In this document: piece after piece, positions 4,414 through 23,161 of the stretch
How positions within the stretch are numbered: position 1 is the first letter of the stretch
Layout: the number at the start of each line of letters is the position of its first letter
IMG/VR virus record: IMGVR_UViG_3300033151_000623
Span: 1 to 51,153 of that record
Direction: 5' to 3' (one strand)
Source: a virus
DNA: 51,153 nt
Translations under genes and position numbers: made by a program
Notes under the pieces: generated by a model
The model's database searches: none
The model's input: only the letters and a program-made list of their open reading frames with translations
What the model was told of the DNA's origin: nothing

Positions 4414-4763
4414 TATTCTCCCTTCTCATATAGCCAGATGAGAGCTTTAGCAAGTGCTTGTTTGAGGTTTCTGCTCCCAAAAACAGGAAATTCGTTTGCA
4501 AAAAATACTTTCCAATTATCATTTGTTCTCTGTCTAACCAGACTATATCCAACAGGCATTTTCTCTTCTATCGCATCAATTAATTCATCAAGCGTGGGGT
4601 CAGGGAGGTAGTGTTCGCAATCCTCGCAAACCAATTCTTTATTTGGGCATTTACCTGAGGTAAAATAATTTCCGCCTTCACCAACCTCCCGATACTCACA
4701 ATCATTTGACTTTTTAAATAATTCTAATTCCTTCAACTTCTTTCTTGTTTCTAAGTTAATCAT
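4413..4763 (-). CDS. Paralogue B of a duplicated small phage protein family
   Basis: 116 aa, the same length as the product of 1591-1941 and clearly homologous: MINLETRKKLKELEL, CEDCEHYLPDPTLDELIDAI and LKQALAKALIWLYEKGE all have counterparts there. The first half has several cysteines (CEYRE, KCPNKELVCEDC). The AGGAGGCTTAG ribosome binding site lies in the end of the RuvC-like gene, so expression follows the resolvase. Function unknown. Confidence 0.6.
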   Translation of the reverse strand: MINLETRKKLKELELFKKSNDCEYREVGEGGNYFTSGKCPNKELVCEDCEHYLPDPTLDELIDAIEEKMPVGYSLVRQRTNDNWKVFFANEFPVFGSRNLKQALAKALIWLYEKGE

Positions 4764-5177: not shown

Positions 5178-6011
5178 TTATTCACCTGTACTCCCAAAAC
5201 CCTTGGCGCCTCTATTGCTTTCAGACAACTTTGTGACTAAATTTATGGGAAAATTAATCAATGGAAATAAAATCATTTGACTGAGTCTTTCTCCTTGTTT
5301 TACTTTAATTAAAGTGTTAGTTAAATTAAACACTCCACAGTACATTCCCCCTCTCCAACCGTTGTCTATCACTGATGGTGGAATCCATAATTTTCTTTTT
5401 ACAAGAGTTGAAGATCTGCCTAAAATAAGCGCCCAGTATCCTTCTGGAATTTCCATATAAATGTTAGTGGGAATATTCTTAAATTCTCTTGGTGGGATAT
5501 CTGTATCTTCAGAAACAAACAAATCGTATCCAGCATCATTGGGATAATGTTTTATCGGGGCCTTGCTACCGTTTTTACATTTAATATTTATGTAAGACTG
5601 ATCATTTATTTTTTGCGGTATTTGTTTAATATACGTTAAACAAGTGTCCAAACTTTGAAATTGTTTGATATTTTTTCTTGATAAAAAGACTGAAGAAAAA
5701 CTATTAGAAGACCATACTACTATTGGTTTGTTTAAAGTACACGCACGTTGAATTTCCATAATAGTACCGATATGGTTTACTGGAAATTCCATTTCCGCTA
5801 AAATTACGTCGCATTTTTCCAATGCTAATTCATTTATTTTTATAATAGCATTTTTATCAAGAGAAGTTGCTTCTCTACCCACTTTAAATGCATGGGCAGG
5901 AGAAAACGTTTGTATACCAACTTTTTTTAAAGTTTCCATAGATTTTTTTCTCCAACTTTCAGCATCGCGTAATCTTGGGTCATCAATTGCCCCAGCCAAA
6001 TATACTATCAT
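5178..6011 (-). CDS. Fusion of nucleoside 2-deoxyribosyltransferase-like domain and dUTPase
   Basis: 277 aa. Residues 1-110 resemble the nucleoside 2-deoxyribosyltransferase fold: MIVYLAGAIDDPRLRDAESW, then CDVILAEMEFP and GTIMEIQRA with a candidate catalytic Glu. Residues 140-277 are a complete dUTPase with its five motifs: DAGYDL, GRSSTL, PSVIDNGWRGG, GERLSQMILFP and a C-terminal RGAKGFGSTGE. The dUTPase half should remove dUTP and give dUMP. The first half may remodel or sense deoxynucleosides or deoxynucleotides. In motif 3 a Trp occupies the place of the usual Tyr. Next to PurZ and a MazG-like gene, the fusion probably shapes the dNTP pool. Confidence 0.8.
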   Translation of the reverse strand: MIVYLAGAIDDPRLRDAESWRKKSMETLKKVGIQTFSPAHAFKVGREATSLDKNAIIKINELALEKCDVILAEMEFPVNHIGTIMEIQRACTLNKPIVVWSSNSFSSVFLSRKNIKQFQSLDTCLTYIKQIPQKINDQSYINIKCKNGSKAPIKHYPNDAGYDLFVSEDTDIPPREFKNIPTNIYMEIPEGYWALILGRSSTLVKRKLWIPPSVIDNGWRGGMYCGVFNLTNTLIKVKQGERLSQMILFPLINFPINLVTKLSESNRGAKGFGSTGE

Positions 6012-6013
6012 TT

Positions 6014-6223
6014 TTACCCACTACCTTTCTTTTCTGTCAATTTTATTATCTGGAGGCAACAGTAATTAATGAGATCTAAAAGCTCTGAAATCATCTCATC
6101 AATTATATTGATTTGTTTCCATGTACCTAAACCGTGTTCTATTTGTCCTTCACGATGTTTTTGTTGGGCCATTTTTATTATTTTCTCAATTTCAGTCAAT
6201 TCCTTTTTACCCTCTTCTACCAA
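6014..6223 (-). CDS. Short MazG-like nucleotide pyrophosphohydrolase (possible MazZ analogue)
   Basis: 69 aa, overlapping the end of the PurZ-like gene by 17 bases. The core IIDEMISELLDLINYCCLQ has the E..xE..D pattern of all-alpha NTP pyrophosphohydrolases of the MazG superfamily, and HGLGTWKQ upstream fits their first helix. It is shorter than classical MazG domains and probably works as an oligomer. In known Z-genome phages a MazG-family enzyme supplies dGMP for PurZ, so the position suits that role; the activity here is inference. The outermost start is TTG at 6223; later starts are possible. Confidence 0.55.
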   Translation of the reverse strand: MVEEGKKELTEIEKIIKMAQQKHREGQIEHGLGTWKQINIIDEMISELLDLINYCCLQIIKLTEKKGSG

Positions 6224-7211
6224 GATCTATCACCCTTTCAAAACCAGTTGCTACGTACCTTATCGGTACTTTCAATTCTTTGCCCATACTTTCTATACAA
6301 TGTAATGCTTTCTTATCTAAAGTTAATTTTCCAGCTAAATCTGGTCGTAAATAATCAAAGAAAGTTAAAACAATTGATGTTGGGTTATTTATTTTAATAG
6401 CACGTTCAGCCAATTCAGAGTCCCATAGACCTATTCTACGTATTTTCTTTGTTACGGTAGTTATTTCTGGTTTTATTTGTAGATCTTCCCATTTTATTTC
6501 ATTTTTTAACGGCCCAGAATTTCCGGCAACTCTAATCGGGAATGTTCTTAATAACAGTAAAGTTTCTACTTCATATTTATTTGGGGGAATACCACAATCA
6601 GCCAATAATGCACTGGCTGAAATTTCTCTGGAAGTACAAAATGGGTAAAATTTAGAGGAATATAAAGACAACCCCCAACCTTGTGTAGCTTCAATAAATA
6701 CTTCAAGACCATCGTCTAATTCGTGATGAATAGCACTGGTAGTATCATCTACGAGGTAATCTTTAAATATAGGATAATCCTTTATTAATTTTGCTTTACG
6801 CATAATTCTATCAGCTAAAGCTGCACCAACTCCTTCTCCCGTACTGCCTATTTTCTTTTTCAGATCCTTTTCAATTTGTTTATGTTTTTCCTCAATGATA
6901 GTAGCGTGTTTATCAATAAGAAGCCGACCCTTTAATTGATAACCTAAGCTCTCCACCATCGCTATTTCTTCTTGCAATACTTTGGGGTCTATTATTGCCG
7001 TTGGTGGAATAATCAGTAATGTGAAAGCTCTGTCCCAAGCACATGGAATTTGACGCATCTTATACACTTTACCTTTATGTATCATCGAATGTCCAGCTTG
7101 ACTACCACCAGTTCTTATTACTGCTGCTGGATTTCTCTCATTATTCAACCAATGAGTAAAAGCCCCTTTTCCACAAGATCCGAACTGCCCATCCATAATA
7201 ATCGTAATCAT
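6207..7211 (-). CDS. purZ: PurZ-like 2-amino-deoxyadenylosuccinate synthetase
   Basis: 334 aa, adenylosuccinate synthetase family. The N-terminal P-loop reads DGQFGSCGKG where PurA has GTQWGDEGKGK, so the catalytic Asp of PurA is replaced by Ser12. This Asp-to-Ser change is a hallmark of PurZ, which joins dGMP and aspartate toward 2-aminoadenine deoxynucleotides. Other family motifs are kept: GGSQAGHS (PurA GGHNAGH), GSTGEGVGAALADR, SREISASALLADCGIPP and KKIRRIGLWD. Length matches short archaeal-type PurA and PurZ proteins rather than the roughly 430-aa bacterial enzyme. The gene has AAAGGAGG upstream and follows the polymerase gene, as in known Z-genome loci. Confidence 0.85.
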   Translation of the reverse strand: MITIIMDGQFGSCGKGAFTHWLNNERNPAAVIRTGGSQAGHSMIHKGKVYKMRQIPCAWDRAFTLLIIPPTAIIDPKVLQEEIAMVESLGYQLKGRLLIDKHATIIEEKHKQIEKDLKKKIGSTGEGVGAALADRIMRKAKLIKDYPIFKDYLVDDTTSAIHHELDDGLEVFIEATQGWGLSLYSSKFYPFCTSREISASALLADCGIPPNKYEVETLLLLRTFPIRVAGNSGPLKNEIKWEDLQIKPEITTVTKKIRRIGLWDSELAERAIKINNPTSIVLTFFDYLRPDLAGKLTLDKKALHCIESMGKELKVPIRYVATGFERVIDLGRRG

Positions 7212-7214
7212 GTC

Positions 7215-8954
7215 TTAAACCTCCTTTAAATTTGATAAATCTGGCCCAATATGTGATTCCACTACCATAGGAACTTTACACGGGAATGGTGATGTTTCTA
7301 AACATTGCACGATTGATGGTATTAAAAACATTTCCTCCTTTCTAATTTCAAATATAAGAGAATCGTGTATTTGGTGCATAATTCTGGTGTCGTGTTTATT
7401 TAGTTTATTATATAATTCTATCATTTTAATCTTCATTATTTCAGCTACTGTACCTTGAATTAATGAATTCATTGCTTTGTGTGGATCTTCAACATTTCTT
7501 CTTCTCCTGCCAGTAAAGTATCTAATATATCCTCTTCTCCTCTGTACTTCTTCAGCTCTCTTTTGTAAACGTCTGAAAGATGGAAAACTTCTATGAAAAC
7601 TCTGTAAAACTTCATACGCTTCTTCAAACGGTAGTTCTAAGTATTCAGCAAGTCCTTTTGCACCTACGCCATAAATCATAGCGAAATTTATTCTTTTGGC
7701 CATTTGTCTACTTTCTTTATCTCGTTTACCTAAAACACGCTCCGCCGTAAGCATGTGAATATCTTCTTTATTAATGAATTGTTCTATCATAGCTTCCTCT
7801 CCAGCAAAATGAGCAGCTATTCTTAATTCAGCTTGGGAATAATCGCAACAAAGGAAAAGGAAGTTAGGCCTGGATTGGATTAATTTTTTAATGTTTATTT
7901 CTCCTTCTTTACCAACATTAAAAACGGGCAAATTTTGCATGTTTGGATTACTGCTTCTTAATCTGCCTGTTTTAGTAAAGCTGGATAAATTTGTTCCAAA
8001 GCTGGTATGCACAGTAGAATCTTTTGTTAAAAATCTTTCGTAAACCTCTAAAAAGTCAGTCCGCCTATTTCTAATAGCTCTGTACTTCATCAACGATTTA
8101 CAAAATGGATTTCGTTGTTGTTCTAAGAAAACTTTATTAGTTGTTTTAGTGTTAATTCCAAACTTCTTACTTAAGATATCCAGCACCTGTATTGTTGATG
8201 CTGGGTTGAAGTCTTTACCTGCCAAATCAACCAATTTTTCGTAAATTTGTTTCTCTGCTTTTTTTGTTTTAATTAATTGTTCTTTCAATTCCTTTTTATT
8301 TATAAAAAATCCAATTTTTTCTATCTCCTTCAATACTGAACAAAAAGACATATCAAACTTTAATAAGTCATTAAATTCTGAGAAGTCTTTTGATTCTTTA
8401 TTGAATTTTTTAAATAGCAGATCTGTTAAGTCTAAATCTTTTAAAGCGTAATCATGCATTTCTTCAGGAGAAATTTCTGCGTATGATTTTAACCTTCTTT
8501 TTCTTATTATATTTTTTATGCGCATTTTCTCAGAACTATCACCAGCCAATTTTTCTAATTGGAAAGAAGAAGCATTTTCATCAATTAAATGGGCCATATA
8601 CATTGTGTCTATTATTTTATTTTTAATTACAATTCCTTCTTTTTCCATAAAAAGAATGTCAAATTTAATATTGTGCCCGACAATAGTCTTTTTACTATCT
8701 GAAAAGAAATCGGATAAAAGAACAATTAAAGACGTCTTTAATTGTTTATGATCACAAAATAAATTTAGTTGAGAAATTACGTGTCTAAATGGCATATAAA
8801 ATCCTTGTCCATCAATCTTCATACCGACTCCACAAAGCATATCACCAGAAAAAGGAAAAAGACCGGTTGTCTCCAAATCAAATATGACTGGAGAATTCGT
8901 TTTCTCTAATTTTCTCAAAATAACAAGAAAATCGTCTTTTTTATTTATTAACAT
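7215..8954 (-). CDS. Family A DNA polymerase with 3'-5' exonuclease (candidate DpoZ)
   Basis: 579 aa. The exonuclease domain has VIFDLETTGLFPF (Exo I), IVGHNIKFDILF (Exo II) and YALKDLDLTDLLF (Exo III). The polymerase domain has motif A DYSQAELRIAAHF, motif B RQMAKRINFAMIYG and motif C MHQIHDSLIFEI. There is no N-terminal 5'-3' exonuclease domain. Motif C has HDS where bacterial Pol I has HDE. Proofreading-competent PolA enzymes next to purZ (DpoZ) are reported to favour aminoadenine incorporation, so this is probably the replicase of a Z genome. The start overlaps the upstream gene by 14 bases. Confidence 0.9.
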   Translation of the reverse strand: MLINKKDDFLVILRKLEKTNSPVIFDLETTGLFPFSGDMLCGVGMKIDGQGFYMPFRHVISQLNLFCDHKQLKTSLIVLLSDFFSDSKKTIVGHNIKFDILFMEKEGIVIKNKIIDTMYMAHLIDENASSFQLEKLAGDSSEKMRIKNIIRKRRLKSYAEISPEEMHDYALKDLDLTDLLFKKFNKESKDFSEFNDLLKFDMSFCSVLKEIEKIGFFINKKELKEQLIKTKKAEKQIYEKLVDLAGKDFNPASTIQVLDILSKKFGINTKTTNKVFLEQQRNPFCKSLMKYRAIRNRRTDFLEVYERFLTKDSTVHTSFGTNLSSFTKTGRLRSSNPNMQNLPVFNVGKEGEINIKKLIQSRPNFLFLCCDYSQAELRIAAHFAGEEAMIEQFINKEDIHMLTAERVLGKRDKESRQMAKRINFAMIYGVGAKGLAEYLELPFEEAYEVLQSFHRSFPSFRRLQKRAEEVQRRRGYIRYFTGRRRRNVEDPHKAMNSLIQGTVAEIMKIKMIELYNKLNKHDTRIMHQIHDSLIFEIRKEEMFLIPSIVQCLETSPFPCKVPMVVESHIGPDLSNLKEV

Positions 8955-14082: not shown

Positions 14083-14196
14083 TGGGGGAGAAGGCAGGAT
14101 TCGAACCTGCGGCATCCGGTTCCGATTTTTTAGGAACCTCATATGCTATAAGCGAAAGGTAAAAATACCGGCGCTCTACCACTGAGCTACTCCTCC
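14083..14196 (-). tRNA. tRNA gene 2: canonical body with 39-nt anticodon-loop insertion
   Basis: This is the clearest of the series. Acceptor GGAGGAG/CTTCTCC, TA at 8-9, D arm GCTC/GAGC with loop AGTGGTA, and anticodon stem CCGGT/ACCGG (14116-14120 and 14167-14171). A 5-base variable loop, T arm GCAGG TTCGAAT CCTGC and an encoded CCA complete it. The anticodon loop is 46 bases instead of 7. Inside it lies a hairpin (14133-14160) carrying the repeated RNA motif found at 14209, 16186 and 16253. G-1 faces C73, as in tRNA-His. If 39 bases were removed a UUU anticodon is one option, but splice points cannot be fixed from sequence. Confidence 0.75.
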
Positions 14197-20689: not shown

Positions 20690-21106
20690 TTATTTCACCT
20701 CCTTAGTATGTAAAATCCCTTCAAGTGTTTTCCTTAACTTTTCACTTGCTTTTCTGTTTGCTTTTGATACCTCAGGCAAGCGGTCTAAATTTTCAATGCA
20801 AACTGCTTTTGCTTGCTCAAAAATGATTTTCAACTCTGCCCGAACATCCTTTTTGCAGACATACTCAAAAGCGTCTACAACCTCCTCATATATTTGTTGG
20901 AGATAATTGGCCATCCCAAAAGGGAGGATTGCCCGCTCACACTCATCAAATTCTTTGGCAAAGTGAGATAACTCGCAATCATCAGGAATAGAATTTTCTT
21001 TTGCAAACTCAATCCAATTTTTTATGCTATATTGGGTTATTTTTTTGTCTGCTTTCCCTTGACAACCGATACAATCATCCATTCCCCAATATTTTGTATC
21101 TCTCAT
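20690..21106 (-). CDS. Hypothetical helical protein downstream of the ribozyme candidate
   Basis: 138 aa. DDCIGCQGKADKK near the N-terminus has a CxxC; the rest is long helices (LQQIYEEVVDAFEYVCKK, IIFEQAKAVCIENL). AAAGGAGAGG precedes the ATG at 21106 and overlaps the 3' edge of the hammerhead-like element. If that RNA cleaves, this gene starts on a new 5'-OH transcript end only about 50 bases before its start codon. Confidence 0.55.
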   Translation of the reverse strand: MRDTKYWGMDDCIGCQGKADKKITQYSIKNWIEFAKENSIPDDCELSHFAKEFDECERAILPFGMANYLQQIYEEVVDAFEYVCKKDVRAELKIIFEQAKAVCIENLDRLPEVSKANRKASEKLRKTLEGILHTKEVK

Positions 21107-21127
21107 CTTATTCCTCTCCTTTCGCCT

Positions 21128-21183
21128 GCCTCATCAGCACCAGTTCGGCTCTCCGGTGGACGCCCCCGAAGGAGCGTTCCGGC
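21128..21183 (-). ncRNA. Candidate type II hammerhead ribozyme
   Basis: Minus strand order: stem II 5' part GCC, core GGAA, stem III CGCTCC-TTCG-GGGGCG with the closing A-T pair, then TC completing the GTC triplet. Stem I follows as CACCGG (9-base loop) CTGGTG, core CTGATGA, and stem II 3' part GGC. All three stems and the GUC cleavage triplet are in the type II hammerhead order; cleavage would fall between 21159 and 21158. One core base deviates (GGAA instead of GAAA), so activity may be reduced. It sits 5 bases after a stop codon, between two genes. Confidence 0.6.
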
Positions 21184-21188
21184 TATAT

Positions 21189-21362
21189 TTATATTGTTAA
21201 GTCCCCTCCTTGTAGCCAAATTAATATTTTTTGCAGGTCTTCTTTATTTCTGTTTTTGTAGCTGCTGAAGAAATTGAGTGGGTTGGTCTTGAACTTTTTT
21301 CCAACTTGCTTTTCAGCTTCCTCTTCGATGGTTTTTATTAACTCTTTTTTTGTCATCTTCAT
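21189..21362 (-). CDS. Hypothetical 57-aa protein, first gene after promoter P3
   Basis: Starts MKMTKKELIKTIEEEAEKQ; ATG codons at 21362 and 21356 both lie near AGGAG. The frame continues upstream but runs into promoter P3, so a longer form is unlikely. One long charged helix is followed by YKNRNKEDLQKILIWLQ. No family recognised. Confidence 0.55.
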   Translation of the reverse strand: MKMTKKELIKTIEEEAEKQVGKKFKTNPLNFFSSYKNRNKEDLQKILIWLQGGDLTI

Positions 21363-21388
21363 CCTCTCCTTTTTAATTTCTAATTTTA

Positions 21389-21417
21389 TTATAACACACA
21401 CATACCTATTTTGTCAA
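21389..21417 (-). promoter_or_regulatory. Promoter P3, best consensus copy
   Basis: Minus strand TTGACA at 21417-21412, 17-bp spacer ending in TATGTGTGTG, TTATAAT as -10. It lies 45 bases downstream of the lysis-operon terminator and about 27 bases before the first gene of the early-type block. The TGTG just before the -10 could act as an extended -10. Confidence 0.8.
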
Positions 21418-21433
21418 TATTTGTTTTTAATAC

Positions 21434-21467
21434 AAAAAGAGGACCAACTCTCGCCAGCCCTCTTTTT
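21434..21467 (-). terminator. Intrinsic terminator after the lysis cassette
   Basis: AAAAAGAGG (minus strand, 5' arm) pairs with CCTCTTTTT across a 16-base loop and runs into a U tract. It lies 12 bases after the stop of the holin-like gene and just before promoter P3, separating the late and early-type transcription units. Confidence 0.85.
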
Positions 21468-21479
21468 ACCACTTTAACT

Positions 21480-21797
21480 TTATAATTTTATTCCAAACAC
21501 ACTTAAATCCGACATAACTTTTTTATGAGCATCTTTTGCTTTTTGAACCGCTATGAACGAAACAACCAGAATTACAAAAATATCTGCTGGTGTCTGCCAA
21601 GGGAAGAAATTAACGATAATTCCAGCAGTAGTAAGAAAAGCCCCAACCCAAAAAGCGATGTTCTCTCCTTTCACTTTCATTTTCTTGAGCCACTTTCCCA
21701 AGAACGGGCAGGCCCTGATTAATTCAACCAGCACCCAGGTGGCAACAACAACAAGGGCATACTGTTCCGCGAGTGAGATTAAATATCCCTCAATCAT
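21480..21797 (-). CDS. Holin-like membrane protein
   Basis: 105 aa with three hydrophobic stretches: ALVVVATWVLVELI (residues about 14-27), IAFWVGAFLTTAGIIVNF (about 47-64) and ADIFVILVVSFIAVQ (about 70-84). AGGAGG lies 8 bases before the ATG at 21797. Size, number of spans and place next to an M15 peptidase gene suggest a holin that releases endolysin. It overlaps the 32-aa gene upstream by 8 bases. No family-specific motif identified. Confidence 0.65.
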   Translation of the reverse strand: MIEGYLISLAEQYALVVVATWVLVELIRACPFLGKWLKKMKVKGENIAFWVGAFLTTAGIIVNFFPWQTPADIFVILVVSFIAVQKAKDAHKKVMSDLSVFGIKL

Positions 21798-21888
21798 CTT
21801 TATCACCTCCTTTTCTCAATCGATTCAGTATTATTATCAATGCAAAGAACAAAATAACAGGCAAGTGCGAAATGAAGTCTTCCAACAT
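21790..21888 (-). CDS. 32-aa single-span membrane protein in the lysis cassette
   Basis: MLEDFISHLPVILFFALIII then a basic, Gly-rich end (RLRKGGDKDD). One membrane segment, AGGGG upstream of the ATG at 21888. Its end contains the ribosome binding site of the holin-like gene, so the two are co-translated. It could be an antiholin-type modulator, but only size and context support that. Confidence 0.6.
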   Translation of the reverse strand: MLEDFISHLPVILFFALIIILNRLRKGGDKDD

Positions 21889-22260: not shown

Positions 22261-22502
22261 TTCGCAACCATCAGAATGTAGGTTGCCATCGCCGTGCACA
22301 TGCTCAGAAGCCCGCCAATCAAGACAGCGATTGACCACGACGGCTTCTTGTCCGATTCAACCTTATAGTCAACAAGATTATCTCTCAGCGAACCAATTAC
22401 TTTCCAAATCTTGTCAAGCGAACCGTTTAGTTTTTTGTGATATTCCTCGTTTGTGTCTGCTCTCTCCTCCAGTTTGGCAATCTTTACATCTATTTCTGAC
22501 AT
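22257..22502 (-). CDS. XhlA/hemolysin-like phage membrane protein
   Basis: 81 aa: a coiled-coil N-terminal part (VKIAKLEERADTNEEYHKK), a helical linker and one C-terminal membrane segment (WSIAVLIGGLLSMCTAMA). This order is typical of XhlA-type proteins beside holins and endolysins in Gram-positive phages, where they help membrane lesion formation. It overlaps the endolysin gene by 13 bases at its start and the Cys-rich gene by 4 at its end. Confidence 0.6.
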   Translation of the reverse strand: MSEIDVKIAKLEERADTNEEYHKKLNGSLDKIWKVIGSLRDNLVDYKVESDKKPSWSIAVLIGGLLSMCTAMATYILMVAK

Positions 22503-23161
22503 CTTTTCAGCCTCTCTTGATAGTCTTTGATTCGCTTATCGATTTCATTGTGCTTTACTGCTACAAGAATTTCGATGGCAACAGTAAATATCAGCTTCTT
22601 CAAATTCTTCCTCCCCAGATTAAAAACTTTTGCGAACGCTGCCCATATAACAGATGATTCCGGGTCTTTGCTTGACGTAATGTACCCGTTCGTTTTCAAT
22701 TCCTCTAAGTCCTTATCCCCCCAGTGCGGCTTCTTCACTTCTGCCTCCTTAATGATTTTCACTATTTCAAAGTGCATCGGGTCTTTGACTGTCCGCCAAT
22801 TCTGCCCACACTCAAATCCCCACTTTTCAAAGATTGCAACCAATCTTTGGTCTTGCTTTCTGAGAGATTTAAAAGGGCAAGATTGATGGTTGAGGTCAAT
22901 GGCAATTCCCCAGCTGTGATGGGAAAGATTGTTGCTGCCCCGCATCTTGCGATACACGTAGCAGCCTCCACCAGCCTTCCATTGAGCAATTGATATCAGT
23001 TTGGACAATCTTTTGTCTTCCAGTTCCTGCAAGGCGGACCTGAGCTGGTATTCTGCCTTCCTGTGCACCCAAACCTTGCCCAGAATCGGCATGTCTGACT
23101 TGATGATGTTCTTGCCAGCCCTGCCGTAATGCAGTTGTATCCAAGTTCTTGAGTGTGCCAT
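22490..23161 (-). CDS. M15-family peptidase endolysin
   Basis: 223 aa. The zinc-peptidase motifs are SHHSWGIAIDLNHQ (His and Asp ligands) and TVKDPMHFEIV (second His), the pattern of L-alanyl-D-glutamate or D-Ala-D-Ala peptidases of the M15 family. These cut the peptide part of peptidoglycan. After the catalytic domain, residues 150-223 contain a hydrophobic stretch (LIFTVAIEILVAV) and a charged coil (DKRIKDYQERL), possibly a membrane or wall-binding region. No signal peptide, so release through a holin is expected. Good GGAGCGAGG upstream. Confidence 0.85.
   Translation of the reverse strand: MAHSRTWIQLHYGRAGKNIIKSDMPILGKVWVHRKAEYQLRSALQELEDKRLSKLISIAQWKAGGGCYVYRKMRGSNNLSHHSWGIAIDLNHQSCPFKSLRKQDQRLVAIFEKWGFECGQNWRTVKDPMHFEIVKIIKEAEVKKPHWGDKDLEELKTNGYITSSKDPESSVIWAAFAKVFNLGRKNLKKLIFTVAIEILVAVKHNEIDKRIKDYQERLKRCQK

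Follow-up and report, generated by a model that had tools for sequence, protein, structure and literature searches.

Background

Type II hammerhead ribozymes are represented in Rfam by the family RF02276 Hammerhead_II (Perreault et al. 2011, PMC3088659). The element described here shares with this family the order of its parts, the stem lengths, the GUC cleavage site, and an intergenic position in phage. The same study reported that loop I of type II hammerheads pairs with the 3′ tail; this pseudoknot is typical of the family without being obligatory, and a short form of it could arise in the present element. The element differs from the family members in an A13G change within an otherwise fixed GAAA, in a potential pseudoknot of 3 bp, and in a fold that is less favourable than that of most relatives. 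Membership was judged in that study by a strict criterion of an unchanged core, yet core variants were accepted given measured activity (PMC3088659).

Tandem hammerheads of this type were described in prophages of Agrobacterium, Azorhizobium, and Clostridium scindens (PMC3088659), where they lie in phage operons, as the present copy probably does, and flank single genes, and the cutting of long transcripts into gene-length messages was proposed as their role. These loci carry several copies each and their activity was demonstrated by cleavage in vitro and by expression in E. coli, where the tandem phage-type hammerheads cut, whereas the present locus holds one copy that is known from its sequence. 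Theta ribozymes of gut phages, which process phage transcripts (PMC10879173), are likewise a small self-cleaving ribozyme type in phage genomes; they differ in having an HDV-like fold, an unrelated structure, and a location beside tRNAs.

With regard to core position 13, PMC4075628, citing earlier biochemistry, states that A13 mutations inhibit cleavage 10–100 fold without killing the ribozyme, and that they are milder than mutations of G5, G8, G12, or A14. In the part of the deep mutagenesis study of hammerheads that was available (PMC9901934), no A13G figure was found.

Results

Genomic surroundings of the element

The window, i.e., the whole 51,153-base virus record analysed here, is probably a bacteriophage genome, and its main open reading frames (ORFs) lie on the minus strand, as does the hammerhead. 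The features around the element, in minus-strand order, are:

21433–21468, minus strand: terminator-like hairpin of 16 bp with an A-tract/U-tract in the stem (−20.1 kcal/mol, z −6.3)
21388–21417, minus strand: sigma-70 promoter TTGACA-18-TATAAT with TG before the −10 box (12 of 12 consensus bases)
21189–21362, minus strand: upstream gene of 57 aa (55 aa if started at 21356), no family match
21120–21184, minus strand: the complete ribozyme, a type II hammerhead with an A13G core (RF02276 match)
21113–21119, minus strand: GGAGAGG, the ribosome-binding site that serves the 138-aa gene, immediately behind the ribozyme (direct reading)
20690–21106, minus strand: downstream gene of 138 aa, without relatives found

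Phage late genes, among them those of an M15 peptidase (22490–23161) and a small protein (21480–21806), precede this set on the minus strand and are followed by the terminator-like hairpin, the promoter, the 57-aa ORF, the ribozyme, and the 138-aa ORF; further small ORFs and a SNF2-type helicase lie downstream of the latter. The hairpin resembles a terminator that ends the upstream transcription unit, and the simplest reading of this order is a new transcription unit that begins at the promoter, with the ribozyme placed after the first of its genes and before the second. This unit is probably early; the description of both neighbouring genes as early-type in the first-pass annotation thus finds indirect support in the 12-of-12 promoter and in the small ORFs ahead of the SNF2-type helicase. 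The element is tightly enclosed, with the stop codon of the 57-aa gene (21189–21191) 5 nt ahead of stem II and GGAGAGG beginning 4 nt beyond the last pairing base of the tail.

Searches of the 57-aa and 138-aa proteins against Pfam and PHROGs returned no relatives, nor did searches of the 138-aa protein against GenBank phages (tblastn) and viral contigs, and the DNA of the locus had no match in GenBank phages. When the 138-aa protein, the terminase, the primase, and a 628-aa protein were searched against viral contigs, nothing was found except one terminase with 33% identity.

Several features elsewhere in the window were recorded in passing. Directly downstream of the 628-aa protein (14266–16152), which is without clear relatives, lies a tRNA-like gene (14086–14196, minus strand; Rfam tRNA, 58 bits) with an encoded CCA and an insertion of about 43 nt in the anticodon loop; it was not detected by ARAGORN and may represent either an intron-bearing tRNA or a tRNA mimic. 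The region 6014–8954 (minus strand) encodes a PurZ-like adenylosuccinate synthetase, in which GSCGKG takes the place of the common GDEGKG, together with a family A DNA polymerase and a small ORF (6014–6223) that is MazG-like by eye. The polymerase also has sub-threshold matches to DpoZ models, and the gene set possibly belongs to a phage with 2-aminoadenine (Z) DNA. The ORF at 5178–6011 (minus strand) fuses a nucleoside 2-deoxyribosyltransferase-like domain to a dUTPase. A long near-perfect hairpin at 17418–17487 (AAAAAGAAGCCACTC ... GAGTGGCTTCTTTTT) is likely a bidirectional terminator.

Identity and structure of the element

A type II hammerhead candidate had been proposed for this intergenic gap by the first-pass annotation, together with a check by the Rfam model score. 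RF02276 matches 21120–21184 on the minus strand over its full length (model positions 1–66 of 66) with 42.3 bits against a gathering cut-off of 37, the E-value being 2.2e-5 when the whole window was searched with all Rfam (4227 families) and 5.3e-9 when it was searched with the Hammerhead_II family alone; a chance match of this strength is not to be expected. The motif initially placed at 21128–21183 lies within this match, which is slightly wider because the 3′ tail is included. No second hammerhead was found within the 51,153-base window, also at a relaxed threshold. From 5′ to 3′, the parts are:

21181–21183, minus strand: 5′ strand of stem II, GCC, forming 3 bp with GGC at 21128–21130 (direct reading)
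21177–21180, minus strand: core G12-G13-A14-A15.1, GGAA where the consensus is GAAA, the deviant base being 21179
21160–21177, minus strand: stem III hairpin, 7 bp with A15.1-U16.1 counted in, UUCG loop at 21167–21170 (pair probabilities 0.90–0.99)
21158–21159, minus strand: predicted cut behind C17 (21159), with 21158 as the first base of the downstream RNA (hammerhead homology, GUC triplet)
21138–21158, minus strand: stem I hairpin, 6 bp with a 9-nt loop (AGAGCCGAA) containing GCC at 21147–21149
21131–21137, minus strand: core CUGAUGA (C3–A9), consensus-perfect (direct reading)
21124–21126, minus strand: 3′ tail GGC, which can pair with the GCC of loop I in a 3-bp pseudoknot

Stems III and I are closed by loops and stem II is open, which is the type II order, and every part named in the first reading (stem III with its TTCG loop, GTC, the 6-bp stem I, CTGATGA, and the 3-bp stem II) is present on the minus strand. 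The predicted cut at 21159/21158 likewise agrees with that reading, leaving 52 nt to the ATG at 21106 where about 50 had been given. Compared with the strict core (C3 U4 G5 A6 N7 G8 A9 G12 A13 A14 A15.1 U16.1 H17), the element departs at A13: 12 of the 13 positions are consensus, the three stems are intact, and the sole deviation is A13G at 21179, the G for A noted earlier. The descent and fold of the element are thus almost certainly those of a type II hammerhead; judged by the rule of an unchanged core, it counts as a variant with putative catalytic membership.

Two other readings of these bases were rejected. An alternative register with the second G as G12 was discarded because the A15.1-U16.1 pair is then lost and stem I is broken, and stem III was not taken as a terminator because no U-run follows the stem.

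Type II hammerheads in other viral contigs

A canonical-core pattern in the same stem II context was scanned over 2.9 million viral contigs, and the matches listed were taken as relatives; these are therefore selected by a fixed core, and their surroundings were described with simple ORF calls that include ribosome-binding sites. Stems I and III were present in 92 of the 104 matches listed (79 loci). When 50 records were searched whole with Rfam, 45 contained a hammerhead match and 27 had one over the cut-off; the largest array comprised 11 copies. Type II hammerheads are hence abundant in viral contigs. One contig (L064, IMGVR_UViG_3300038412_000035) carries an array of about ten of them, with a copy behind many of its small genes and some with a U4C core.

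Among the matches listed, an upstream stop codon lay at most 5 nt away in 64 of the 92 structured copies, and a start codon with a ribosome-binding site followed 10–40 nt downstream in 62. Both gene-boundary features were combined in 46 of the 92, compared with 0 of 44 controls, which were companion matches to a G13 pattern, nearly all unstructured and half of them inside long ORFs. The element of the window fits this intercistronic arrangement, with the stop codon at its 5′ edge and the ribosome-binding site and start codon just 3′; its offsets are +3 (stop) and +21 (start), compared with medians of 0 and 26 among the relatives listed. The window copy therefore has the typical placement of phage type II hammerheads. 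A poor model score together with missing conservation had been named at the outset as speaking against a hammerhead; instead, the curated cut-off is passed, and type II hammerheads with this placement recur in many other phage contigs.

The pseudoknot between loop I and the tail stands out clearly among the matches listed: 40 of 85 relatives had 4 or more Watson–Crick pairs (shuffled tails, 12 ± 3), and 55 of the 85 had 3 or more; the window can form 3 (GCC/GGC).

Predicted folding

In a prediction of secondary structure without tertiary contacts, the hammerhead of the window lies 5.8 kcal/mol above the minimum-energy fold. The median gap in the 92 relatives among the matches listed was 1.0 kcal/mol, and 10 of the 92 were as bad or worse. 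The hammerhead is not predicted as the minimum-energy fold because a CCGG that exists only through G13 pairs with the CCGG of stem I. This modelled gap is a warning about activity, and the predicted CCGG pairing is the only hint that the element might have two states.

Distribution of the A13G change

A descriptor scan that allowed one core change yielded 157 elements, of which 150 were fully canonical; the others comprised four with U4C, one with C3T, one with A13T, and the window element with A13G. U4C is known from a viroid. The C3T element looks spurious, and the A13T match (in L050) looks like a misaligned canonical element. Since the set was mostly pre-selected for A13, directed scans of position 13 were made. 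With G13 in the CCG/GG context, the 2.9 million viral contigs held no structured element beyond that of the window, while in the GCG/GC context the viral contigs yielded a single clear element (L279: IMGVR_UViG_3300009379_000006, 4620–4682, minus strand). The G13 scan of genome contigs gave no clear element, and directed scans for C13 or U13 gave no structured form. Most G13 pattern matches were unstructured chance matches, half of the first set lying inside long ORFs; a further one (L028) was a canonical A13 element picked up by a shifted match, and five (L287, L313, L219, L226, and L250) looked partly structured but were rejected for want of an Rfam hammerhead match.

The L279 element (64.2 bits) resembles that of the window in carrying A13G in an otherwise consensus core and in occupying the gap between a stop codon, here of a 181-aa ORF, and a ribosome-binding site. 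It differs in sequence, in a stem II of only 2 bp, and in the presence of a canonical A13 copy (6207–6272, 76.6 bits) on the same contig at a distance of 1.6 kb. Because the directed scans gave this one further clear case, G13 is regarded as very rare but natural, occurring in two independent sequences at proper sites. A13G is expected to make the window element cut more slowly than its canonical relatives, and fast natural hammerheads could absorb a 10–100 fold loss of rate.

Discussion

On balance, we favour the reading that an A13G type II hammerhead between the first and second genes of a probable early operon cuts its own transcript, more slowly than its canonical relatives do. For an active hammerhead we counted the intact stems with 12 of 13 core positions, the Rfam score, the abundance and tight placement of such elements in viral contigs, the loop I–tail pairing of relatives, the recurrence of G13 in L279 where C13 and U13 gave no structured form, the slowed but living A13 mutants, and the cutting by tandem phage-type hammerheads in E. 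coli; against it we counted the near-absence of G13 in nature, the poor predicted fold, the mere 3 bp of the pseudoknot, and the failure of the searches to find a relative of the locus itself. Sequence, structure-model score, intergenic position, and the recurrence of the arrangement in other phages are direct observations, and from them we infer cleavage, the nature of the RNA ends, and an effect on expression. Cleavage in the cell seems somewhat better supported than its opposite; it would probably be slow and split the early phage message.

The same evidence can be read as that of a relic, left by a once canonical type II hammerhead that A13G and the shortening of its pseudoknot deprived of useful activity, and that now stands between the two genes as no more than a passive hairpin. 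Such a history would agree with the near-constancy of A13 (150 of 157 descriptor matches canonical, the other A13 call being an apparent misalignment), with the more stable CCGG–CCGG pairing that competes with the hammerhead fold, and with a pseudoknot shorter than in about half of the relatives among the matches listed. However, all stems and the other core positions are intact, which is unusual in a decaying element of 65 nt, it fits exactly into the gap from stop codon to ribosome-binding site, and G13 recurs in the otherwise very high-scoring L279 element, so that we consider a relic unlikely, though deserving of some weight. Far less probable is an error of sequencing or assembly at 21179 in a real hammerhead with a canonical core. 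The origin of the sequence from one virus record and the extreme rarity of G13 would speak for it; against it stand the intact flanking ORFs, the absence of any mark of low quality nearby, and the G13 of L279.

It is also rather improbable that the element is a conditional ribozyme, in which G13 slows the chemistry and creates a competing fold, and cutting depends on ribosomes that terminate on gene 1 or initiate on gene 2. Two nearly exclusive folds are predicted, and with the stop codon 5 nt ahead of stem II and the ribosome-binding site 4 nt after the tail pairing, a ribosome at work on one or the other gene would cover part of the element; equally close spacing is, however, common in canonical copies, and a regulatory explanation is therefore not needed. 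A broader proposal, for which we see only a slim chance, is that A13G is a selected, repeatedly arising slow core of phage hammerheads that delays cutting and allows the competing fold, flanking translation or the stage of infection setting the fraction of early message that is split.

For a slowly self-cutting hammerhead, the following course may be envisaged. The promoter at 21417–21388 would drive the early operon, with the ribozyme between the 57-aa first and the 138-aa second gene, and stems III, I, and II would fold co-transcriptionally into a three-way junction in which pairing of loop I with the tail draws stems I and II together. The transcript would then cut itself between 21159 and 21158, the chemistry following from the hammerhead class. 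The 3′ end of the gene 1 RNA would be formed by stem III with its UUCG cap and would carry a 2′,3′-cyclic phosphate. The RNA of the remaining operon would bear a 5′-OH, open immediately with the stem I hairpin, and reach the start codon of the 138-aa gene after 52 nt. UUCG-capped hairpins are very stable, and a 5′-phosphate favours RNA decay. Since both new ends would be structured and free of such a decay-favouring 5′-phosphate, the two messages could have separate lifetimes and be translated separately. Given the terminator-like hairpin upstream and the perfect sigma-70 promoter, the ribozyme would thus probably act between gene 1 and the rest of the early operon; that the separation of gene 1 is its actual role is put forward tentatively, as a proposition with nearly even chances.

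Since message processing by hammerheads was published in 2011 (PMC3088659), these results sharpen a known hypothesis and do not open a new one. New here are the tight placement at gene boundaries, measured on viral contigs, and one more natural occurrence of G13 besides that of the window. The arrangement of stop codon, ribozyme, and ribosome-binding site (92 structured copies among the matches listed) amounts to a simple testable rule, namely that phage hammerheads cut cleanly between two genes of one message, and the window copy together with that of L279 offers a natural test of how far phages tolerate core damage at position 13.
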